Positions 3,538 through 24,705 of a stretch of 39,884 bases of DNA are shown piece by piece (the first letter of the stretch is position 1; every line of letters begins with the position of its first letter). Both the position numbers and the translations under genes were made by a program. Source of the stretch: a virus; IMG/VR virus record IMGVR_UViG_3300010430_004805, positions 1 to 39,884 of that record; one strand, given 5' to 3'. The notes below the pieces were generated by a model. The model saw nothing but the letters and a program-made list of their open reading frames with translations. It was not told where the DNA came from and ran no database searches.

Positions 3538-4001
3538 TGGTACGGAAGCGCACGGACAACCTGACGCAGGACTTGTTTGATTGGAAGCCCAAGATCCCGG
3601 TCGAGCGGTATGAGGATCACGTCACCCGCGCAGCGACCCTGCAGGGCCGGATCAGTCTGGCGGTCAGCAAGACTTTGAACGACGCGACCGACGCTGAAGG
3701 TCGCAAGCTGGCACGCGACGATGTTGCCAAGCGGATGGCCGCCTATCTCGGCGAGAAAGTGTCCAAGACAACATTGGATGCCTATGCCAGCGAGGCCCGC
3801 GAAAACAGCATCCCGCTGGACCGCGCCGTGGCGCTGATGATCGTCACCCAGGATTTTCGCCTGCTCTCACTTCTAGCCGATCCGGTCGACCACGCGGTCA
3901 TCCCGGCGAAATACCAGGGCGCTGTCGTTGAAGCGATGCTGGTGGAGAAGCGCGAAGAAATCGACGCAATGATCAACGACTCCCGGCGGGCGCGCAAATG
4001 A
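3537..4001 (+). CDS. Conserved hypothetical protein upstream of transposase
   Basis: A 154-residue protein starting at the ATG of a TGATG overlap; a longer in-frame reading exists upstream but it only shadows the ParB-like gene. The middle (ARDDVAKRMAAYLGEKVSKT, TLDAYASEARENSIPLDRAV) resembles a helix-turn-helix with an adjoining helical bundle. I recall similar proteins just before the transposase in other Mu-like phages, annotated without function. It overlaps the transposase start by ATGA, so it is probably translated in step with it and may be a small DNA-binding cofactor. Confidence 0.75.
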   Translation: MVRKRTDNLTQDLFDWKPKIPVERYEDHVTRAATLQGRISLAVSKTLNDATDAEGRKLARDDVAKRMAAYLGEKVSKTTLDAYASEARENSIPLDRAVALMIVTQDFRLLSLLADPVDHAVIPAKYQGAVVEAMLVEKREEIDAMINDSRRARK

Positions 4002-5941
4002 AGACATGGTGGTCGCCGAAGGAAATGGTCGATGCCGGCCTTGCCGGGATGCCGACCACTGTCCGCGCCATCAACGTCCGGGCCGGTAAAGAGGGCTGGG
4101 CGGAACGCCGCAACCTCGCCGGAGAACCACTTGCCCGTCCGCGCCAGGGCCGCGGCGGCGGCCTTGAATACCACGTCTCTCTCCTGCCGGACGAAGCCCA
4201 GGTTCAGTTGGTGAAGGCCCGCACGCGGGAGGCTCTCGCCGCACCGGCGGCAAAGAAGCCGTCGAGCGCCATATGGGAAACCTTCGAATCCCAGCCTGAC
4301 CGGCAGAAGCAGAAGGCGCGCGATCGACTGCAGGCGCTGATGGATGTAGAGGCGCTGATCCGCGGCGGCCTGCAGAAGAACATCGCGGTCAGCACGATCG
4401 CCGCGCAGCGCGGCGTATCCACCCGGAGCATCTACAACTGGTACGATCTGGTTGTCGGCCATGACGAGAGCGATTGGCTGCCGCTATTGGCGCCGAAACA
4501 CGCCGGCCGTCACGCAACCGTCCCCTGTGATCCAGCGGCCTGGGCCTTCTTCAAGGCGGATTATCTTCGCCTCGCTCAGCCGAGCCTGGAGAGCTGCTAC
4601 CGCCGCCTGCAGATGACGGCCGAGGAAAACGGCTGGACCATCCCAAGTAGCCGGACGCTGCACCGCCGGATCGAGCAGGAGATCCCGGCCGCCGTTCACG
4701 TACTGCTTCGGGAAGGCCAAGAAAAGCTGAAGCGCCTCTACCCGGCGCAGGAGCGCGACCGCTCGAGCTTCCACGCGCTGCAGGCCGTCAACATGGACGG
4801 TCACAAGTGGGACGTCTTTGTCCGGTGGCCTGAAGACAACACCGTCGCTCGACCTATCATGGTCGCCATACAGGATCTGTATTCCGGCAAGATTCTCGCG
4901 TGGCGGATCGACAGGACTGAGAACGCGGACAGCGTGCGCCTCGCCTGCATGGACATGTTCCGGGCCTATGGCATTCCTGACGAGATGAGCTTGGACAACG
5001 GCCGCGCCTTCGCCAGCAAGTTCATCACCGGCGGTGCGACCAACCGCTTCCGCTTCAAGGTGAAGCCGGAGGAGCCGACCGGCATCCTGACCGCCATGGG
5101 CGTCAAGCTGCATTGGACGACACCTTATTCGGGCCAGTCCAAGCCGATCGAACGCGCCTTCCGGGATCTGTGCGACACTGTGGCAAAGCACCCCGCATTC
5201 GAGGGCGCCTATACCGGCAACAGCCCAGACGCCAAGCCCGAGAATTACGGCAGTCGGGCGGTGCCCCTTGAGACCTTCCTGGAGGTCGTCGATCAGGGCA
5301 TTCGGATGCACAATGCCCAGGCCAAGCGCCGGTCTCGCGTATGCCAGGGCATCTATTCTTTCGACGATGTGTTCGCCGCGTCCTACCAGGGCGCGTTGAT
5401 CAAGCGGGCTTCCGAGGCCCAGCTGCGCATGTGCCAGCTGGCCGCCGAGAATGTCCGCGCCAATACCGAAGACGGTTCGATCAACTGGGCCAAGAACCGC
5501 TACTGGGCGGAATTCCTTCTCGAGGTGCGCGGCACCGCGCTGACGATCCGGTTCGATCCGGACGACCTGCAGTCAGGGATCGACGTCTACCGCCTTGATG
5601 GCACATTCATCGGCCGTGCGGAATGCATCGCCGCTGTCGGCTTCAGCGACCAAGCCGCCGCCCGCGATCACAGCCAGAAGCGCCGCAAGTTCATTAGGGC
5701 AACCAAGGACGCAGCGGCCCTCGGCCAGCAGCTGTCACGCGACGAGCTGCTCCGCCAAATGCCGAAACTCGACAACGACGACGAGCCTTTTATCCCGGCC
5801 GCCGTTCGCCTTGCACCCCATCACCGGAATGCCGCGGCGCTGGCCGTCGCGACAAGAAGGCAGCCGGAAGAGCTGCCGGAATTCGAAGACGTCAGTGAGC
5901 ACTGGATGGCCGGTCTCCGGCTGATCTCCGACGACGACTAA
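3998..5941 (+). CDS. A: DDE transposase A (MuA-like)
   Basis: A 647-residue protein, close to MuA (663). The N-terminus (WSPKEMVDAGLAGMPTTVRA) is the Mu-type winged helix that binds an internal site. Residues about 121-151 (IRGGLQKNIAV, TIAAQRGVSTRSIYNWYD) form the second HTH, which binds end repeats. The RNase H-like core has D267 (NMDGHKWD), D333 (SLDNGRAF) and E385 (KPIERAFRD), matching MuA D269/D336/E392. The C-terminal part includes the Mu_transpos_C beta-barrel and a tail that should contact B. It cuts and joins the prophage ends to target DNA during integration and replicative transposition. All catalytic residues are present. Confidence 0.96.
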   Translation: MKTWWSPKEMVDAGLAGMPTTVRAINVRAGKEGWAERRNLAGEPLARPRQGRGGGLEYHVSLLPDEAQVQLVKARTREALAAPAAKKPSSAIWETFESQPDRQKQKARDRLQALMDVEALIRGGLQKNIAVSTIAAQRGVSTRSIYNWYDLVVGHDESDWLPLLAPKHAGRHATVPCDPAAWAFFKADYLRLAQPSLESCYRRLQMTAEENGWTIPSSRTLHRRIEQEIPAAVHVLLREGQEKLKRLYPAQERDRSSFHALQAVNMDGHKWDVFVRWPEDNTVARPIMVAIQDLYSGKILAWRIDRTENADSVRLACMDMFRAYGIPDEMSLDNGRAFASKFITGGATNRFRFKVKPEEPTGILTAMGVKLHWTTPYSGQSKPIERAFRDLCDTVAKHPAFEGAYTGNSPDAKPENYGSRAVPLETFLEVVDQGIRMHNAQAKRRSRVCQGIYSFDDVFAASYQGALIKRASEAQLRMCQLAAENVRANTEDGSINWAKNRYWAEFLLEVRGTALTIRFDPDDLQSGIDVYRLDGTFIGRAECIAAVGFSDQAAARDHSQKRRKFIRATKDAAALGQQLSRDELLRQMPKLDNDDEPFIPAAVRLAPHHRNAAALAVATRRQPEELPEFEDVSEHWMAGLRLISDDD

Positions 5942-5961: not shown

Positions 5962-6927
5962 ATGTCAGACGACAACTTTACCGATGGACTAGCCGAAGAA
6001 GACTATATCGACGCTCAGCGCGATGCGCTTCTCAAGCACAAGGAAGACCAGGGATTCTCCTGGGATACGATCGCGAAGAAATCCGACATCGCTCGCGGGA
6101 CGGTCAGTAATTTCGGCAGCGACAATTACACTGGCAACCGGCTTGCCGTCGCCAAAATGGTCGAACGGTATCTGGCGAGCTATGCCGAGCAGCGCAAGCT
6201 GCGCGACCTGGCCGCGGATGGCCCCAAATTCGAACTGACGCCGACCGCCGACAAGATCTGCAACGTATTGAACTGGTCGCATACGCTGAACAGCGTGGCC
6301 GTCATTGTCGGCGAGCCGGGCTTGGGCAAGACGACAACCTTCCGTCGCTACTGCGAGAACACGCCGCACGCCCATCTGGTTACTTTGCGGGCAGAGGTCA
6401 AAACGGTGCCGCGACTCTATTGCGAGATCGCGAACGCGGTAGGGGTCCGGTCCTACAATTACGCCAATGTTCGTGCGCGCATCCTGGATCATGTGAAAGG
6501 GGCGAACCCGCTCTTGATCGTGGACGAGTGCCAGCATGCGTCCATGCAGATGCTGGACGAGATCCGGTCGCTGAACGATCTGAACGGTTTCGCCATCATC
6601 TTCGCCGGCAACTTGAAGGTTCTCGGTTCCATCCAATCGGAGAAGGCGAATTTCGCGCAACTGGCCAGCCGTGTCGGTCTGCGCCTTGTCCTGACGAAGC
6701 CGTCCGCGGGCGACATCACCGCCTATGCCTCCGCCTGGGGCGTCGAAGACGACAACGTCATGACGCTCCTGAAGAAGATCGGCAATAAGCCCGGCGCACT
6801 GCGCAATATCAAGCAGGTCATGGGGCTCGCAACCCTGATCGCCGCCGGTCAGAACCGGCAGGCGGTCGAGCCCGGCGACGTCGAAAAGGCCTGGGCCAAT
6901 CTCGCGGCCAGCGAGGTGATGGCATGA
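5962..6927 (+). CDS. B: Transposition target-selection ATPase B (MuB-like)
   Basis: A 321-residue AAA+ ATPase (MuB has 312). An N-terminal HTH lies near residues 32-51 (GFSWDTIAKKSDIARGTVSN). Walker A is GEPGLGKT (117-124) and Walker B is LLIVDE (184-189). A sensor-type FAGN lies near 215, and the C-terminal helical domain (about 255-321) corresponds to the MuB DNA- and A-interacting part. ATP-bound MuB filaments coat target DNA, stimulate A and confer target immunity. The gene starts 20 bp after A and overlaps the next ATG by 4 bp. Confidence 0.95.
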   Translation: MSDDNFTDGLAEEDYIDAQRDALLKHKEDQGFSWDTIAKKSDIARGTVSNFGSDNYTGNRLAVAKMVERYLASYAEQRKLRDLAADGPKFELTPTADKICNVLNWSHTLNSVAVIVGEPGLGKTTTFRRYCENTPHAHLVTLRAEVKTVPRLYCEIANAVGVRSYNYANVRARILDHVKGANPLLIVDECQHASMQMLDEIRSLNDLNGFAIIFAGNLKVLGSIQSEKANFAQLASRVGLRLVLTKPSAGDITAYASAWGVEDDNVMTLLKKIGNKPGALRNIKQVMGLATLIAAGQNRQAVEPGDVEKAWANLAASEVMA

Positions 6928-11664: not shown

Positions 11665-12144
11665 ATGCCAAGAGACGATGACAACATGGAACTGAAGACG
11701 ATCATTCCCGCCGGCCGCCCCGGCATAGCAAACCCGATCGACGTGCATGTCGGTAACCGCATGCGGATGCGCCGGATCATGCTGGGCATGAGCCAGCAAA
11801 CCCTCGCAGCGCATGTGGGCCTGACCTTCCAGCAGGTCCAGAAATACGAGCGGGGGACGAACCGCATGGGGGCGTCCCGCCTGTGGGATATGTCGAACGT
11901 CCTGGACGTGCCCATCACCTTCTTCTTCGAGGACATGCCCGAAGCGATCGCCAGCAACAGCCCGCGTCTGCGCGCCGGCGTCTGCGACACGACGCCGCCG
12001 GAGATCGAGTTTGAGTCCGATCCGATGGCCAAGCGGGAAACCCTCGAACTGGCCCGCGCCTACTACAAGATCCGCGACCCCAAAGTGCGGAAACAGGTCT
12101 TCGAATTGGTGAAGGCCCAGGCAAAGAGTTACGGCAATGGCTGA
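11665..12144 (+). CDS. XRE-family transcriptional regulator
   Basis: A 159-residue protein; ATG 11665 follows AAGGA. Residues 25-85 are a typical XRE HTH: VGNRMRMRRIMLGMSQQTLA, HVGLTFQQVQKYERGTNRMG, SRLWDMSNVLDVPITFFFED. The C-terminal helix (ETLELARAYYKIRDPKVRKQ, VFELVKAQ) resembles that of alphaproteobacterial XRE regulators of this size. It differs from the lysogeny repressor at 1813 and lies within the rightward operon, so it probably tunes early or middle gene expression. It overlaps the next start. Confidence 0.88.
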   Translation: MPRDDDNMELKTIIPAGRPGIANPIDVHVGNRMRMRRIMLGMSQQTLAAHVGLTFQQVQKYERGTNRMGASRLWDMSNVLDVPITFFFEDMPEAIASNSPRLRAGVCDTTPPEIEFESDPMAKRETLELARAYYKIRDPKVRKQVFELVKAQAKSYGNG

Positions 12145-13198
12145 CCGCACCAAGATCGAATGGACGGACGCGACCTGGAACATCGTTACGGGTTGCTCCG
12201 TCGTTTCGCCCGGATGCACCAACTGTTATGCGATGAGGCTGGCAGGCGGTCGCTTGAAAGGCCACCCGAGCCGGAAGGGGCTGACCGCCCCTTCCAAGGC
12301 CGGGCCGGTCTGGAACGGACAGGTTCGGTTCAACGGACAATGGCTGACCCAACCACTTCACTGGAAACGGCCTAGACGGATATTCGTCGCCGCTCATGGG
12401 GACCTTTTCCATCCTGCCGTTGCGGTGGGCACCCTGGACAACATCTTCACGATGATGGCTCGCGCCCCCCAGCATTCGTTCCAAATCCTGACCAAACGGC
12501 CGAATAGGATGTGCCACTACGTCACGGACCTCGGAACCCGCCGCTATGATTTCGGAACAGTGAACGAGATCAGCTACTGCGATTGGCCTTTGAAGAATGT
12601 CTGGCTGGGGACGAGCGTCGAAGACCAGGCTCGCGCGGTCGAGCGCATCCCGTATCTGCTGCGCACGCCGGCGGCCGTCCGGTTTATCAGCGCGGAGCCG
12701 CTGCTTGGCGAGCTGTATCTTCGGAACGTCAATTACGCCCCCTCAAACCGTGGCTTCATGGACAGCCTGACGGGTCAAACAGAACACGTTGAAGTTCAAG
12801 GAAAGCCCCATGCCGCTGCGCCGTTGCCGGCCCTCGACTGGGTCATCGCCGGCGGCGAGAGCGGGCCAGGCGCTCGGCCGTGCCATCCCGACTGGGTCCG
12901 GGATCTTCGCGACCAATGTGCCGGCGCGAGCGTGCCGTTCCACTTTAAACAATGGGGAGACTGGCTGCCATGGGAGCCAGAACGCGGACCGTGCTGGATC
13001 AGTCAGAACGGCCGCAGCGAAGATCACCACGTCTTATTCCCGGCCGAAATGGATGACGATCCTACCTGGGACGACGGCCTTGCCTACATCGCGGATGGCG
13101 AACGCCATGCCGCGTTCCAGCTTGTCGGAAAGAAGGCAGCGGGCCGGAAGCTGGACGGCGTGACGCACGACGGATTCCCGGAGGTGAGCCATGCCTGA
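12137..13198 (+). CDS. DUF5131 (phage Gp37/Gp68 family) protein, Cys-cluster enzyme
   Basis: A 353-residue protein matching the DUF5131 family: KIEWTDATWNIVTGCSVVSP and GCTNCYAMRLAGG give C20, C27 and C30 (C-x6-C-x2-C), a likely iron-sulfur or radical-SAM-like ligand set. Later family motifs are FQILTKRPNRM, NVWLGTSVEDQ, RFISAEPLLG, DWVIAGGESGPGARP and PFHFKQWG. Length is above many relatives because of insertions near 220-240 and 300-340. Function is unknown; the Cys pattern suggests a radical or Fe-S enzyme acting on nucleic acid or nucleotide. It overlaps the DUF4326 gene by 8 bp. Confidence 0.88.
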   Translation: MADRTKIEWTDATWNIVTGCSVVSPGCTNCYAMRLAGGRLKGHPSRKGLTAPSKAGPVWNGQVRFNGQWLTQPLHWKRPRRIFVAAHGDLFHPAVAVGTLDNIFTMMARAPQHSFQILTKRPNRMCHYVTDLGTRRYDFGTVNEISYCDWPLKNVWLGTSVEDQARAVERIPYLLRTPAAVRFISAEPLLGELYLRNVNYAPSNRGFMDSLTGQTEHVEVQGKPHAAAPLPALDWVIAGGESGPGARPCHPDWVRDLRDQCAGASVPFHFKQWGDWLPWEPERGPCWISQNGRSEDHHVLFPAEMDDDPTWDDGLAYIADGERHAAFQLVGKKAAGRKLDGVTHDGFPEVSHA

Positions 13199-13526
13199 AC
13201 GCATCCAGCTGCGCCGGACGCCCGGATGGCGGAAGCCCGAAGGAACGGTTGTCTGTGCCCGACCGAGCAAGTGGGGAAACCCGTTCAAGGTTGGGTCGAA
13301 AGTCTGCTCCAAGGCCAGCGGCGTTTATCGTGAAGAGCCGATCGAGACGGCCGCGGACGCGGTCGAGCGGTTCAGGGACATGCTTGAGATCGATGGCCGC
13401 AACTATCCACCAACAGAGGAAATCATCCGCGAGCTGCGCGGCAAGGATTTGGCGTGCTGGTGCCTGCCGGACGAACCTTGTCACGTCGACGTGTTGCTCG
13501 AAGTCGCGAATGAGGAGCGGGAATAG
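13191..13526 (+). CDS. DUF4326 domain protein
   Basis: A 111-residue protein spanning the whole DUF4326 domain: RIQLRRTPGWRKPEGTVVCA and RPSKWGNPF at the N-terminus, LRGKDLACWCLPDEPCHVDV at the C-terminus. The C-W-C...P-C-H cluster may bind metal. The enzymatic role is not known to me. It overlaps DUF5131, so the two may act in one pathway. Confidence 0.88.
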   Translation: MPERIQLRRTPGWRKPEGTVVCARPSKWGNPFKVGSKVCSKASGVYREEPIETAADAVERFRDMLEIDGRNYPPTEEIIRELRGKDLACWCLPDEPCHVDVLLEVANEERE

Positions 13527-13528
13527 TC

Positions 13529-13933
13529 TTGACGCACCTTACCGGCATCCTGGCAGAGATCGAGGCGGCGACCGACAGGCGCACGGCCGAGAAGCTTGCC
13601 ATCCGCTTCGGCGGGCAGCGCATCAAGCTGCCGGCGCGGCCGAGGGAGACGTCGCCGCTGGCGAAATGCGTCGGCCTGGATGCCGCCACGGCCATCGTCG
13701 ACGCGATCGGCCATGGCGAGGTGCAGATCCCGATGGCGCATCTGCGCGGCACCGGCGCCCGCCGTTGCGCCGTCGCCAGGCTGATCCAGGAAGGAAAATC
13801 CGTCGCTTCCGCCGCCCAGATCGCCGATGTGCACGAGCGGACGGCATGGCGGATCAAGAGCCGCATGGCTGACGAGGGCTTGCCCTTGTTCGACAGGGTC
13901 ATTGACTCCGGCACTGATTCCGGCGAGTTGTGA
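13529..13933 (+). CDS. mor: Mor-like transcription activator
   Basis: A 134-residue protein from TTG 13529, preceded by GAGGAGCGGG. It carries two copies of the Mor/C dimerisation motif: FGGQRIKLP (27-35) and GHGEVQIPMA (61-70), compared with GGGQVYIPRG in Mu Mor. A C-terminal HTH follows (SVASAAQIADVHERTAWRIK, 91-110). In Mu, Mor activates the middle promoter and its relative C the late promoters by contacting sigma70 RNA polymerase. No second Mor/C gene is seen in the window, so this one may run both roles. It is the last gene before the terminators and the late units. Confidence 0.8.
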   Translation: MTHLTGILAEIEAATDRRTAEKLAIRFGGQRIKLPARPRETSPLAKCVGLDAATAIVDAIGHGEVQIPMAHLRGTGARRCAVARLIQEGKSVASAAQIADVHERTAWRIKSRMADEGLPLFDRVIDSGTDSGEL

Positions 13934-13959
13934 CGCCATTCGCATCGACGAAAACCGCC

Positions 13960-13990
13960 GCCCCTGACATCTGTCAGGGGCGTTTTCTTT
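13960..13990 (+). terminator. Terminator and palindrome after the Mor-like gene
   Basis: Arms GCCCCTGACA (13960-13969) and TGTCAGGGGC (13972-13981) pair perfectly and are followed by GTTTTCTTT. This fits a factor-independent terminator for the early/middle operon. A near-identical palindrome recurs at 21543, where no T-run follows, so the element may also have a protein-binding role. Confidence 0.75.
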
Positions 13991-14034
13991 GCCCGCCCGC
14001 CATACCGTCACCGTGTCGTATTGGCAAAACACTC

Positions 14035-14072: not shown

Positions 14073-14471
14073 ATGCATTTCCCGAAAACTGTCTGGAACC
14101 CGGACGACACGCCGAACTTCACGACCGACGAAATGGCGTGCCGGTGCGGTCAGTGCGGCGGGTTGGCCGACATGGACGGGAATTTCATGGCGGTGCTTCA
14201 GGCGCTGCGGAAGATTCTCGACCGCCCGTTGACCGTCACCAGCGGTTATCGCTGCCCCCGTCATCCGGACGAAATCGGCAAGCGCAATCCGGGCTCTCAT
14301 GCGCAGGGCCGAGCCGCCGACATTCAGGCGGACAGCGCCCTCAAATTCGAAATCATCAAGCATGCACCGTTCCTCGGCTTCGTGGGGATCGGGCCTGCCA
14401 AGACGTTCATTCATCTCGATACGGGTCATGCCTTCGCGCATCGGCCTGCCGTCTTCACCTACGACGAGTGA
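14073..14471 (+). CDS. Peptidase M15-type endolysin (D-Ala-D-Ala carboxypeptidase fold)
   Basis: A 132-residue protein; ATG 14073 is chosen because GGGGCGG precedes it and the upstream extension has no family match. The zinc site of M15 peptidases is visible: SGYRCPRHP, then SHAQGRAADI (H76, D83) and FIHLDTG (H114, D116). C23/C25/C28 (MACRCGQCGG) sit in the N-terminal region. It would cleave peptide cross-links in peptidoglycan at lysis. No signal peptide is present, so release depends on a holin such as the next gene. Confidence 0.88.
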   Translation: MHFPKTVWNPDDTPNFTTDEMACRCGQCGGLADMDGNFMAVLQALRKILDRPLTVTSGYRCPRHPDEIGKRNPGSHAQGRAADIQADSALKFEIIKHAPFLGFVGIGPAKTFIHLDTGHAFAHRPAVFTYDE

Positions 14472-18403: not shown

Positions 18404-19966
18404 ATGACCGACGAAACGAACACCGCCAACAAAGCCGCCGTTCTCCTGCGCGAAGTGGCGACGATCGCCAGCGACCCCGCCTATCCGGCCTTCGACGGTC
18501 TGCTTCGGCAGGAGGACGACACGCTCGCCACGCGCGGCCAGGGCCGCGGCCTGAAGCTGTATGACGAGCTGCTGCGGGACACGCGCTGCCATTCGGTCAT
18601 CCAGAAGCGGGCGACGGCCGTCGTCGCCAAGGAATGGTTCGTCGAGCCGGGTGCGGAGGATTCCCGGGCCAAGGCGGCGGCCGAGCTGGTCGAATCCGTG
18701 CTGAAGGAGTTGAACTTCGACAAGCTGTGCATCGACCTGCTGGACGCGATCCTGAAGGGCTATGCCGTTTCCGAAGTTTTCCCGATGATCGAAGGCGGCG
18801 TCGTCAAGATCGACCGCACCATCGCGCGCAGCCAGGACCGTTTCGTCTTCGACGACAAGCGCCGGCCCCGCCTGTTGACCAGGGACGCGCCGATCAAGGG
18901 CATCACGGCGCCGCCGCGCAAGTTCATCATCCACACCTTCGGCGGCCGCGACGGCAACCCCTACGGACTGGGTCTTGGATCCAAACTGTTCTGGCCGGTC
19001 TTCTTCAAGCGCCAGGGCATCAAGTTCTGGCTGAAGCTGGCCGACCGGTTCGGCACGCCGACAACGATCGCCTCCTATCCCAAGGGCGCCGACGACGCGG
19101 AGATCGACACGGTGCTGCGCGCGCTGCGAGCCCTGGCGAATGACGGCATCATCGCCAAGCCGGAGGAATGGGCGATCGAGCTTCTGGAATCGGCGGCATC
19201 CGGCAATGTCACGACGCAGGAGCAGCTCTGCCGTTACATGGACGAGCAGATGGCGGAATGCGTTCTGGGCGAAACCCTGACCACCAATATCGGCAAAGTC
19301 GGGTCCAAGGCCGCCGCCGAGACGCATGACGGCATCCGCGAGATCCTGGTGAAGTTCGACGCCGACATGCTGTCGGAAACCTTGAACCGGTCTCTCGTCA
19401 CCTGGATCGTCGAATGGAACTTCGGGTTCAATGTGGCGCCGCCCAAGGTTTGGCGGTCCTTCACCGAACAGGAGGATCTGAACGAGCGCGTCGATCGGGA
19501 CGAGAAGCTGTCCAAGATGGGCTGGCATCTGACGCCGGAGAAATTCGCGGAGATTTATGGCGAGGGCTACGAATACCGGAAGCCCGCGCCGCCGCCTGCA
19601 GCGCCCGGTACCGGCGAGGAAGATCCGGACGGCGAGGCGGAAGACGAAGAAGACGGCGACGGCACGGCGGAATTCGCCGAGGCGGCGGCCGGCGATTTCG
19701 CAGACCGTCTTTCGGTCATGCTGGACGCCGCGGCGATGCCCGCCATGAACAAACTGGTCGCGCAGATCCGCGGCGCGCTGGCGTCGTCCACCGACCTGGT
19801 CGAATTCGGCGAACGCATCCTGACGCTCTATCCGGAACTGGACGACAAGGGTCTGGCGCAGCTGATTGGCGACGGCCTGGTCGCGGCCGAGCTGGGCGGC
19901 CGCGCCGAGATCCAGGACGGGCAGAAGGCAACGGCCGGAACCGCGAGAGACCGCGGCAGTGTCTGA
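18404..19966 (+). CDS. Portal protein (DUF935, Mu gp29-like)
   Basis: A 520-residue protein. Family motifs include RDTRCHSVIQKRATAVVAKE, FDKLCIDLLDAILKGYAVSE, GRDGNPYGLGLG, FWPVFFKRQGIKFW and LTTNIGKVGSKAAAETHDGI. An acidic, low-complexity stretch near residues 405-425 (EEDPDGEAEDEEDGDG) precedes the C-terminal helical domain. It forms the dodecameric portal through which DNA enters the head. The 3' end overlaps the GTG start of the MuF gene by 8 bp. Confidence 0.94.
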   Translation: MTDETNTANKAAVLLREVATIASDPAYPAFDGLLRQEDDTLATRGQGRGLKLYDELLRDTRCHSVIQKRATAVVAKEWFVEPGAEDSRAKAAAELVESVLKELNFDKLCIDLLDAILKGYAVSEVFPMIEGGVVKIDRTIARSQDRFVFDDKRRPRLLTRDAPIKGITAPPRKFIIHTFGGRDGNPYGLGLGSKLFWPVFFKRQGIKFWLKLADRFGTPTTIASYPKGADDAEIDTVLRALRALANDGIIAKPEEWAIELLESAASGNVTTQEQLCRYMDEQMAECVLGETLTTNIGKVGSKAAAETHDGIREILVKFDADMLSETLNRSLVTWIVEWNFGFNVAPPKVWRSFTEQEDLNERVDRDEKLSKMGWHLTPEKFAEIYGEGYEYRKPAPPPAAPGTGEEDPDGEAEDEEDGDGTAEFAEAAAGDFADRLSVMLDAAAMPAMNKLVAQIRGALASSTDLVEFGERILTLYPELDDKGLAQLIGDGLVAAELGGRAEIQDGQKATAGTARDRGSV

Positions 19967-21215
19967 CGAAGGCGCGTCGCCGGAGATCCTGGCGCAGGGT
20001 ATTCCCTTCGAAGAGGCGATCGACTACCTGCGCGGCAAGGTGCCGATCCCGACCCGCGCCTATACCGATGTGTGGGGGGCGATGCATGCCCGCGCCTTCG
20101 TCGTCGCCGGCGCCGTGAAGGCGGAACTGGTCGCCGATTTTCATTCGGCCGTGACCAAGGCGATCGCGGAGGGCAAGTCGCTGGGAGAGTTCCGGAAGGA
20201 CTTCGACGATATCGTCGCGCGCCATGGCTGGAGCTACAACGGCTCGCGCGGCTGGCGCTCGGCCGTCATCTACAACACAAATCTGCGCATGGCCCAATCC
20301 GCCGGCCGCTGGGCGCAGGCGCAGCGCCTGGCGGAGATCGCGCAAAGGCGCGGCGAAACGGTCTATCTGCGATACGTTGCCGTCCTGGACAGCCGCACCC
20401 GCACGCTGCACCGTGAATGGCACGACATCATCCTGCCGATCGATCATGCGTTCTGGGATTCCCATCATCCGCCGAACGGCTGGAATTGCCGCTGCACGAT
20501 CCAGGTGCTGACCAGGCGTGCGCTCGAACGCCGCGGACTGAAGCCGACCGAGGACAAGGACCTGCCGCCGCCCCGCATGGTTCCGGCCCGGGTCCGCTCG
20601 GCCGACGTTGACCAAACAGTCCTGACGCCGCGGGGAATCGACGCCGGCTTCGGCTACAATCCCGGCCGGGCGGGCTTCGGCCGCGGCGCGGACCTGAAGG
20701 CGATGCAGTCGCATGGCGGTTTCGACGCGCTGAGCAGCCCCTTCGGCGACCGCCCGGCGGACCCGCCGATGCCGCCGGCAAAGAAGCCGGATGTGAAGCT
20801 CGCGCCGCGCGTGACGGAGATAGAGGAGGCGCGGCGGATCTTCAGGGAGGCGATCGGCGGCGACGAGGCCGTCTTCGAAGATCCGCTCGGCGGGCATGTC
20901 ATGCTGAGTCAGGCGATCGTCGATCACTTCGCGGACCGGCCCCACGACCTCAGCGCGCGGACACAGTTCTTTCCGCTCCTCCCCGGCCTGATCGAGGACC
21001 CCTCCGAAATCTGGGTCGGGTTCGCCACGAACAGGATCACCGGCCAGGTCTTCATCCGACGGCGTTATCTGCGCGTGATCGAACTGCCGAACAACAAGTC
21101 GCTCGCGATCGTCGCCGACCAGGATGGCGGCCGCTGGGCCGGGCTGACCACATTCATTGGCGGCGCCACAAAAGCACCACGGGTCCGGACCGGTTTGCGA
21201 ATTTTCGCGAAATAG
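19959..21215 (+). CDS. F: MuF head morphogenesis protein with C-terminal PBECR2-type nuclease
   Basis: A 418-residue protein from GTG 19959, overlapping the portal gene. Residues 1-190 are the MuF/gp30 minor head domain: PFEEAIDYLRGKVPIPTRAY, then SAVIYNTNLRMAQSAGRW, VAVLDSRTRTLHREWHD and the conserved NGWNCRCTIQ (174-182). A Pro-rich linker (about 203-282) leads to residues ~285-418, which match phage-Barnase-EndoU-ColicinE5/D-RelE-like nuclease family 2: FFPLLPGLIEDPSEIWVG, YLRVIE and TTFIG near the end. Such MuF C-terminal domains are proposed to be toxins carried in virions. No neighbouring immunity gene is obvious; 438 bp without a clear gene follow. Confidence 0.85.
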   Translation: MSDEGASPEILAQGIPFEEAIDYLRGKVPIPTRAYTDVWGAMHARAFVVAGAVKAELVADFHSAVTKAIAEGKSLGEFRKDFDDIVARHGWSYNGSRGWRSAVIYNTNLRMAQSAGRWAQAQRLAEIAQRRGETVYLRYVAVLDSRTRTLHREWHDIILPIDHAFWDSHHPPNGWNCRCTIQVLTRRALERRGLKPTEDKDLPPPRMVPARVRSADVDQTVLTPRGIDAGFGYNPGRAGFGRGADLKAMQSHGGFDALSSPFGDRPADPPMPPAKKPDVKLAPRVTEIEEARRIFREAIGGDEAVFEDPLGGHVMLSQAIVDHFADRPHDLSARTQFFPLLPGLIEDPSEIWVGFATNRITGQVFIRRRYLRVIELPNNKSLAIVADQDGGRWAGLTTFIGGATKAPRVRTGLRIFAK

Positions 21216-21542: not shown

Positions 21543-21563
21543 CCCTGACATTTGTCAGGGGCG
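21543..21563. promoter_or_regulatory. Late-leader palindrome, second copy
   Basis: CCCTGACA-TT-TGTCAGGG matches the element at 13962-13982 at 20 of 21 positions, including the GGCG that follows. Unlike the first copy it is not followed by a T-run, so it is unlikely to be a terminator here. It ends 91 bp before the protease start codon, the same spacing as the first copy has to the endolysin start. A dimeric activator such as the Mor-like protein is a reasonable binder. Confidence 0.55.
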
Positions 21564-21604
21564 AATGCCGTGCGTTCGGTTCCTACGGTGCAGGTCTGAT
21601 TTGC

Positions 21605-21632
21605 GCCGCCGCTTCACTGTGAGGCAGGCGGC
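21605..21632 (+). other. GC-rich hairpin upstream of the protease gene
   Basis: GCCGCC (21605-21610) and GGCGGC (21627-21632) flank a partly self-complementary GCTTCAC/GTGAGGC core, giving a strong stem-loop ending about 21 bases before the start codon. The unit at 14035-14053 has a GGCGGC/GCCGCC hairpin at a comparable place. It could be an mRNA-stabilising or attenuating structure. Confidence 0.45.
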
Positions 21633-21653
21633 TTTCGAACCACCGAGGACCGT

Positions 21654-22814
21654 ATGGCCCCCACCCCGATCGAGATATTCCGCCCCGGCAAACACACCGC
21701 GACCAACGGGTCGCGGCTGGAGTTCACCGAGGACATGCTCGAGGCATCGGCCGCCGCCTACGATCCGGATGTCCATGAGGCCCCGATCGTCGTCGGCCAT
21801 CCGGCCAACGACGCGCCGGCCTATGGCTGGATCAGTGGCGTCAGCTACGCCGAAGGCTCCCTGACCGCCATGCCGTATCAGGTGAACGCGAGTTTTGCCG
21901 AACAGGTGAAGCGGGGTGCCTACAAGAAAGTCTCCGCCTCCTTCTACGCGCCGGATTCCGACGCGAACCCGGTGCCGGGCGTCTACTATCTGCGCCATGT
22001 CGGTTTTCTGGGCGCGCAGCCGCCGGCCCTGAAGGGTCTGCGGAGGGTCGAATTCGCCGGCGGCGACGACGGCGTCGTGACGGTAGAGTTCGGCGAATAC
22101 GAGGACCGCGTCGTCGCCCGCATGTTCCGCCGCCTTCGGGAATTCATCCTGGCCAAGCACGGCCAGGAAGACGCCGACACCATCCTGCCGGGCTACGAGA
22201 TCGATCTGCTGGCCGAAGAAGCCGGCCGAACCGACGCGCCGGCCTATGCCGAGCGGACCCCTGCTCCACCGACCCCTGCTGCATCCAAACAAGAGGACGA
22301 TGACATGACCAACGCCGCCGAGGCCGCCGCGCGCGCCGCCGAGCTGGATGAACGCGAAGCCGCCATCCGGCAGCGCGAGGCCGAATTCGCGGAACGCGAC
22401 GCCACCACCCGCCGGACCCAGATCGCCGATTTCGTTTCCGGCCTGGTCGAGAAGGGCCAGGTCCCGGCGCTGCGGAAACCGGCGATGGTCGCGTTCATGG
22501 AAACGCTGCGCGACGGCGCCGAGGGCGCGGTGGAATTCGCCGAGGCCGGCGACGACGGCAAGGAAGTTCCCGTCAAGAAGTCGCAGCTGCAGCTGTTCAA
22601 GGACATGGTCGCCGCGATGCCGGCGCTGGTCTCCTTCGGCGAGGTCGAGGGCGACGAACAGCCGGCCACGATCGCATCGGCCGTGGTCGCGCCGACCGGC
22701 TACACCGTCGACCGCGACCGCCAGGCGCTGCACGAAGAGGCCCTGGCCTATGCCGAGCAGCACAACATCCCTTACATCGACGCCGCCATGCGGGTCGAGC
22801 TGCGCCGCGCCTGA
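21654..22814 (+). CDS. I: Mu I-like prohead protease with C-terminal scaffold
   Basis: A 386-residue protein with GAGGA before the ATG. The N-terminal half is the Mu I protease: PIEIFRPGKHTATNG, APIVVGHP (H49), then KKVSASFY (candidate catalytic Ser94 or Ser96) and YLRHVGFLGAQPPALKGL. Residues ~218-386 form a coiled-coil scaffold (AAELDEREAAIRQREAEFAE), as in Mu where Z is read from within I. It would process the scaffold and head proteins during capsid maturation. The Pro-rich linker 200-217 separates the two parts. Confidence 0.92.
   Translation: MAPTPIEIFRPGKHTATNGSRLEFTEDMLEASAAAYDPDVHEAPIVVGHPANDAPAYGWISGVSYAEGSLTAMPYQVNASFAEQVKRGAYKKVSASFYAPDSDANPVPGVYYLRHVGFLGAQPPALKGLRRVEFAGGDDGVVTVEFGEYEDRVVARMFRRLREFILAKHGQEDADTILPGYEIDLLAEEAGRTDAPAYAERTPAPPTPAASKQEDDDMTNAAEAAARAAELDEREAAIRQREAEFAERDATTRRTQIADFVSGLVEKGQVPALRKPAMVAFMETLRDGAEGAVEFAEAGDDGKEVPVKKSQLQLFKDMVAAMPALVSFGEVEGDEQPATIASAVVAPTGYTVDRDRQALHEEALAYAEQHNIPYIDAAMRVELRRA
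22305..22814 (+). CDS. Z: Internal in-frame scaffold protein (Mu Z-like)
   Basis: ATG 22305 (residue 218 of the protease) follows AAGAGGACG and opens exactly at the start of the coiled-coil part (MTNAAEAAARAAELDERE). Mu produces its scaffold Z from an internal start inside I. This product would be 169 residues. It is inferred from the ribosome site and the domain boundary. Confidence 0.6.
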   Translation: MTNAAEAAARAAELDEREAAIRQREAEFAERDATTRRTQIADFVSGLVEKGQVPALRKPAMVAFMETLRDGAEGAVEFAEAGDDGKEVPVKKSQLQLFKDMVAAMPALVSFGEVEGDEQPATIASAVVAPTGYTVDRDRQALHEEALAYAEQHNIPYIDAAMRVELRRA

Positions 22815-24222: not shown

Positions 24223-24639
24223 ATGAATACTTATACCTGTAATTGGCCGGTCAAGCTGAACGGCAAGACCTACGGCGCCGGCCAGGACATCCCGGCTGAA
24301 GGCAAGGTCGCGCGCAATCTGGAGAATTCCGGCTCGATCTCGGCGTCCGCGACCGTCGTCGTGGAAAAGGCGAAGCCGGAACCGCTAACCGACGACCAGC
24401 TCGAAATGGTCGTCGCCGGCGCGGTCCGCCAGCTGAACCCGGAAACCAAGGGTCATTTTCTGAAGGACGGCAAACCCGATGTCGCCGCATTGCAGAAGAT
24501 CCTGGACGATGCCGGCATCAAGCATCAGTTGAGCGCGAAACAGCGCGATGCGATTTGGGAGAAGATCAAGCCGGCCCCGGCCGCGACCGAAGCCCCGGTG
24601 ACGGGAAAGACGGAGGGCGAGGGTTCCGCGTCGGCGTAG
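24223..24639 (+). CDS. Mu gp35/HI1506-like head protein
   Basis: A 138-residue protein. The N-terminal beta part (PVKLNGKTYGAGQDIPAEG) is followed by TDDQLEMVVAGAVRQLNP and a helical module (GKPDVAALQKILDDAGI, LSAKQRDAIWEKI), as in FluMu HI1506 and Mu gp35. Its C-terminus is a low-complexity tail (GKTEGEGSASA). The TAG stop lies inside a tRNA gene (bases 8-10 of the tRNA). Confidence 0.82.
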   Translation: MNTYTCNWPVKLNGKTYGAGQDIPAEGKVARNLENSGSISASATVVVEKAKPEPLTDDQLEMVVAGAVRQLNPETKGHFLKDGKPDVAALQKILDDAGIKHQLSAKQRDAIWEKIKPAPAATEAPVTGKTEGEGSASA

Positions 24640-24705
24640 AGCAGATGGTAGCTCGCCAGGCTCATAACCTGGAGGTCGCGGGTTCAAGTCCCGCCGCCGC
24701 AACCA
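24630..24705 (+). tRNA. Initiator-type tRNA-Met (CAU), phage-encoded
   Basis: A 76-nt cloverleaf ending in encoded CCA. D arm GAGC/GCTC with GG at 18-19, anticodon arm CCAGG-CTCATAA-CCTGG (anticodon CAT 24663-24665), variable loop AGGTC, T arm GCGGG-TTCAAGT-CCCGC. Initiator features: unpaired 1:72 (G/A), A11:U24 in the D stem, C3:G70 and G4:C69. Deviations: 2:71 is U/C and the 29:41 pair is A:U rather than G:C. The first ten bases overlap the end of the gp35-like gene. Either a functional extra tRNA-fMet or a slightly degenerate copy. Confidence 0.85.

Follow-up and report, generated by a model that had tools for sequence, protein, structure and literature searches.

Paired palindromes as very probable late-activator operators in a Mu-like phage

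The stretch beginning at position 21543 raises the question of why one palindrome should stand ahead of two separate late genes of the same phage, and what it does there. The window, that is the whole 39,884-nucleotide stretch that was analysed, is a record of a Mu-like phage, with genes for a transposase (3998-5941), a MuB-like protein (5962-6927), terminase, portal, gpF, protease and capsid. The 18-mer CCCTGACANNTGTCAGGG is found in it twice, at 13962-13979 and 21543-21560, when up to three mismatches are allowed (shuffled sequences give an expectation of 0.08 copies). Direct comparison of CCCTGACATCTGTCAGGGGCG (13962-13982) with CCCTGACATTTGTCAGGGGCG (21543-21563) gives 20 identical positions out of 21, in agreement with an earlier note on this DNA. 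A search of the window for a third site returned only weak matches with five mismatches, and no additional late promoters ahead of P and mom, which are a feature of Mu itself and are not needed for family membership, were found there.

The palindromes and their neighbouring genes

The first copy lies 29 bp after the end of an activator-type gene and ahead of that for an M15 peptidase (endolysin), and the second is flanked by gpF and the head protease gene (Table 1). The product of the activator-type gene matches phrog_836, 'late transcriptional activator' (E = 3.8e-14), with no match to PF08765. Among 16 relatives, all match phrog_836 and 12 match the Pfam Mor family PF08765, while a profile built from the relatives matches Mu Mor itself (PDB 1rr7, E = 0.0066). 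As would be expected of a Mu-type promoter, a phage-encoded activator of the Mor/C family is thereby predicted, the recognition helix of which is HERTAWRIKSR (residues 102-112, including Trp107 and Arg108). Within the early operon, genes for DUF5131 and DUF4326 proteins (12137-13526) immediately precede the activator gene. Elsewhere in the window, the gpF-like protein (19866-21215) has a PBECR2 nuclease-like domain at its C-terminus (PF18810, E = 1.4e-17), and a tRNA gene in the late region (24630-24701; Rfam RF00005, 58.7 bits) overlaps the end of an open reading frame at 24223-24639.

Table 1. Coordinates of the palindromes, predicted promoter elements and adjacent genes in the window
Feature	Position	Strand	Remarks
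Mor/C-family late activator gene (predicted)	13529..13933	+	134 aa
Operator 1 (putative)	13959..13982	+	24-nt perfect palindrome CGCCCCTGACA-TC-TGTCAGGGGCG; shortly after the Mor stop, as in relatives
Operator 1 core, CCTGACANNTGTCAGG	13963-13978	+	
T-run TTTTCTTT	13983..13990	+	3' of the operator 1 stem; may be an overlapping early-operon terminator or a spacer T-tract
Predicted -10 TACCGT, Plys-like promoter	14003..14008	+	conserved xAxx[G/C]T column block
Predicted transcription start, lysis operon	14015	+	placed from +45 from centre, the -10 and relatives' ATG at +45/+46
Endolysin (peptidase M15), first gene after operator 1	14073..14471	+	PF08291, E = 4.1e-16
Operator 2 (putative), CCCTGACATTTGTCAGGG	21543..21560	+	core 21544-21559; flanked by gpF and protease, a placement shared with relatives
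Predicted -10 TACGGT, PI-like promoter	21584..21589	+	conserved xAxx[G/C]T column block
Predicted transcription start, head operon	21596	+	placed from +45 from palindrome centre
Head maturation protease (Mu gpI-like), first gene after operator 2	21654..22814	+	phrog_976, E = 3.1e-113

Position and spacing in related phages

An exact scan for the 18-mer across 2.9 million viral contigs identified 35 stretches, mostly Mu-like phage loci in which the palindrome either directly follows a Mor-like gene or separates gpF from the protease or scaffold gene. Several of these contigs carry both sites (L005, and pairs of loci from one contig). The 3.9-Mb genome of UBA1479, a Rhodospirillaceae bacterium, contains exactly two copies of the 16-mer (at most one mismatch), both in a single prophage closely related to the phage of the window, 63 and 8112 nt downstream of the stop codon of the Mor gene; with only two copies in the whole host genome, the hypothesis that the palindrome is a host repeat was rejected. 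The search of related Mu-like phages that the earlier note had recommended therefore found the palindrome near the lysis and protease genes to be conserved rather than absent. A related-locus search with the protease as query yielded no confirmed relatives.

Some occurrences have a different setting. Two viral contigs (L066 and L086), not Mu-like by the searches, each contain five copies of CCTGACANNTGTCAGG within about 4 kb, identically spaced, and in Rhizobium genomes (L139, L153 and L197) CCCTGACANNTGTCAGGG occurs in pairs separated by about 130 bp, with no link to a Mor gene seen. At L141:1631, a CCTGACAATTGTCAGG palindrome is located about 40 bp 5' of a Mor-like open frame rather than behind it, perhaps reflecting autoregulation.

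Mor loci were also picked by their match to phrog_836, independently of the palindrome, from 289 alphaproteobacterial and 274 gammaproteobacterial genomes and 297 genomes of the order to which UBA1479 belongs, and the DNA behind each match was then read; the 85 loci included had 6 kb or more of downstream sequence. An exactly repeated perfect palindrome, near the Mor stop and again 4.5-10.5 kb further on, is present in 22 of the 85 (null 7/666), rising to 26 (null 2/497) with relaxed matching and a -10 hexamer at both sites. The other 59 loci have no such pair by these rules, being decayed prophages, broken contigs or loci with imperfect sites. The operators vary between phages yet agree within one phage, with half-sites that include CCTGACA, GCTGACA, CCCGACA, GTGACAG, CGGACA, CCGGAAC, CCGGAAG, CTGAAC and GCGCAAC. 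The same layout, each time with its own palindrome, is found in the cultured phages RcapMu, RcWaterboi and RR1-B. One alphaproteobacterial genome (G044; L292, L293, L296 and L307) has five phrog_836 matches, of which at least two are accompanied by an operator pair of their own (GCTGACA; C/GCTGACA). Under the strict palindrome test the signal from B3 is weak. D3112 is also weak, and its pair CGCCAN3TGGCG was rejected as the -10 does not fit. Mu and YPCBV-1 failed the strict palindrome-pair test, the Mu sites being imperfect dyads; as a positive control, Mu gave no strict palindromes at Plys or Pm.

What relatives maintain is the distance from the palindrome to a hexamer of the form xAxx[G/C]T, which is positioned 33-38 nt from the palindrome centre in 35 of 54 non-redundant sites, whatever the operator sequence. 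These 35 sites combine an A at position +34 with a T at +38, against a frequency of 2.5% at other offsets (binomial P ~1e-42). The hexamer looks like a sigma70 -10, and no good -35 hexamer could be found, the best mean match to TTGACA being 2.1 of 6. Because the distance from hexamer to centre is fixed, the operator can be placed at about -44.5 relative to the predicted start, on the assumption that the hexamer occupies -12 to -7. This is near the -43.5 centre of the dyad at -51 to -36 bound by Mu Mor in Pm, a promoter that is itself without a -35 (PMC4390567, PMC4287176). As at a Mu-type promoter, a dyad activator site would thus overlap the -35 region some 43-44 bp upstream of the predicted start.

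In 22 of the 54 sites (~40%), a long reading frame begins with a start codon at +44 to +48, which is where transcription is predicted to start. The 45-49 bin holds an ATG at 19 sites, compared with 0-5 in most other bins and 7 in the highest of them. Leaderless late mRNAs are therefore predicted in many relatives, mostly for the gene that follows the PI-like promoter. In the window, both late genes have apparent leaders of roughly 58 nt, although the endolysin could instead begin at an in-frame GTG, at 14013 (+43 from the palindrome centre). In phage B3 (L314:10858-10888) the annotated protease start is just after the palindrome, within the predicted promoter; the true start may be an in-frame ATG that lies 30 nt further on, close to where transcription is predicted to begin.

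Two further features of the window attracted attention in the earlier note. Both copies do end 91 bp ahead of an ATG (14073 and 21654), but the distance to the start codon is variable in relatives, which keep the distance to the -10-like hexamer instead, and hence the equality is a coincidence. Similarly, GGCGGC/GCCGCC hairpins are indeed present in both leaders, yet ten occur in the window, about 2% of 110-nt stretches contain one, and the stability of the leader folds is unexceptional (z -0.8 and -1.6). Many relatives have no leader at all. These hairpins were rejected as a functional element, being frequent in a G+C-rich genome, not unusually stable and not conserved in relatives.

Recognition helices and rival explanations

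The variation in operator sequence follows that in the recognition helix of the adjacent protein. Across 30 phages, Arg at residue 108 (window numbering) accompanies the half-site GAC in 14 of 14 cases, and any other residue accompanies A at that position in 16 of 16. At residue 107, Arg is found with CGGA in 12 of 14 cases and Glu with CCGA in all three, while an aromatic residue, His or Ser goes with T at the corresponding half-site position; the two exceptions to the residue-107 rule are L283 and L284. Distances between recognition helices and between operators are still correlated once the remainder of the protein is taken into account (partial Mantel r = 0.48, P = 0.0002). On the tree, five changes are needed per trait, and the independent-pairs test is not significant, there being too few independent changes. 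Among 62 Mor loci that had been held out, 6 contained the helix-predicted operator together with its -10, against 0 and 0 when either base was swapped. It seems fairly likely that these pairings represent a Mor/C code, in which residue 108 reads the GAC/GAA position and residue 107 its neighbour, with lineages having re-tuned the activator and both operators to give mutually insulated late switches, many of them with leaderless mRNAs.

The sequences show that the two sites exist, that relatives keep them in the same places, that the -10 spacing is constant and that operator and helix covary; on this basis we infer that the two palindromes are, with high probability, the operators of two late promoters, counterparts of Plys and PI, bound by the Mor/C-family protein encoded beside the first. 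The late-activator site for a Mor-like protein that the earlier note envisaged therefore gains strong support from sequence comparison. The protein would bind each palindrome as a dimer, with one recognition helix per CCTGACA half-site; the bound activator would substitute for the missing -35 and recruit host sigma70 RNA polymerase to the -10 hexamer, 33 nt from the dyad centre. A single activator, expressed early, would in this way switch on the lysis and packaging operon and the head and tail operon together.

Of the competing hypotheses, the proposal that the palindromes are intrinsic terminators ending the early and lysis operons, their likeness to each other being incidental, draws on the strong hairpin formed by copy 1 (-22.9 kcal/mol, z -4.6) and the TTTTCTTT that follows it. 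More generally, TTTT lies directly 3' of the stem on the late strand in 13 of 54 sites, against 0 of 54 in the next interval along, and is absent from the other side of the palindrome; in RcapMu a T-run follows both copies. However, the remaining 41 sites lack the T-run, including copy 2, which bears out the earlier observation that it is limited to copy 1 within the window. Termination would also leave unexplained why the two stems of one phage are identical while those of other phages differ, the constant position of the -10 and the covariation with the helix-turn-helix. It is very unlikely as the explanation of both copies, and is not a general function of the palindrome, as most sites have no T-run. 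Operator and terminator are likely to overlap at a subset of sites, and operator 1 may double as the terminator of the early operon; alternatively, its T-tract may belong to the spacer, where such tracts are reported for Mu Plys and Pmom (PMC4461284).

An antitermination element, also raised in the earlier note, or an RNA leader element acting on the late transcript would fit a hairpin-forming sequence 5' of the late genes. The palindrome would nevertheless be outside the late RNA, because the predicted start is downstream of it, and such an element is difficult to reconcile with the sites at which the start codon coincides with that start, or with leader hairpins of ordinary stability that are not conserved; this explanation is hardly credible. 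Binding by another protein, whether a phage repressor or a host regulator, controlling the same promoters seems extremely improbable. Palindromic operators are common among many regulators, and the CCCTGACANNTGTCAGGG string is present in unrelated genomes too, but such a protein would not account for operators that change with the adjacent Mor-like helix and can be predicted from it in held-out loci, nor for the restriction of the sites in the UBA1479 genome to the two in the prophage.

Relation to Mu and significance

C and Mor of phage Mu are classic activators, and the Mu late promoters Plys, PI, PP and Pmom are activated by C. The sites described here resemble Plys and PI in being found at the same two positions, before the lysis gene and before the protease gene I, as is characteristic of Mu-type late promoters, in having a dyad in place of the -35 region, and in the location of the activator gene directly 5' of the lysis gene; a spacer T-tract is shared by some sites with Plys and Pmom (PMC4461284). 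They differ from the Mu late promoters in being perfect dyads with half-sites of 7-11 bp, in numbering only two in the window, in their association with a single Mor/C protein and no evident separate middle phase, and in the leaderless transcripts predicted for many relatives. The resemblance to Pm and Mor extends to a 16-bp dyad, a -10 without a -35 and a Mor family protein (PMC4390567, PMC4287176). By contrast, Pm drives the C gene, Mu has two paralogous activators with different sites, and the Mu half-sites are of 5 bp with a 6-bp spacer, compared with at least 7 bp and a spacer of about 2 bp here. In RcapMu and RR1-B, both cultured alphaproteobacterial phages, the palindrome likewise follows the activator gene and precedes the protease with the -10 spacing kept, but the operators, CCGGAC and CCGGAAC, match different recognition helices, and the element is unannotated in their records. 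Hence the system in the window would appear to be a simpler version of that of Mu, with two promoters, a single activator, and operators that are highly symmetric and specific to each lineage.

The open-access literature that was searched contained no description of these palindromes, although an earlier mention in the original RcapMu, B3 or D3112 papers is possible, and no account of Mor/C promoter logic across Mu-like prophages, or of its specificity determinants, was found in the literature searched. The element offers a route, from sequence alone, to the late promoters of Mu-like prophages. It also suggests corrected gene starts, such as that of the B3 protease, and leaderless mRNAs for structural genes. 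Furthermore, it predicts pairs of activator and operator that could be swapped in a reporter, which makes the protein-to-DNA code of the family testable.
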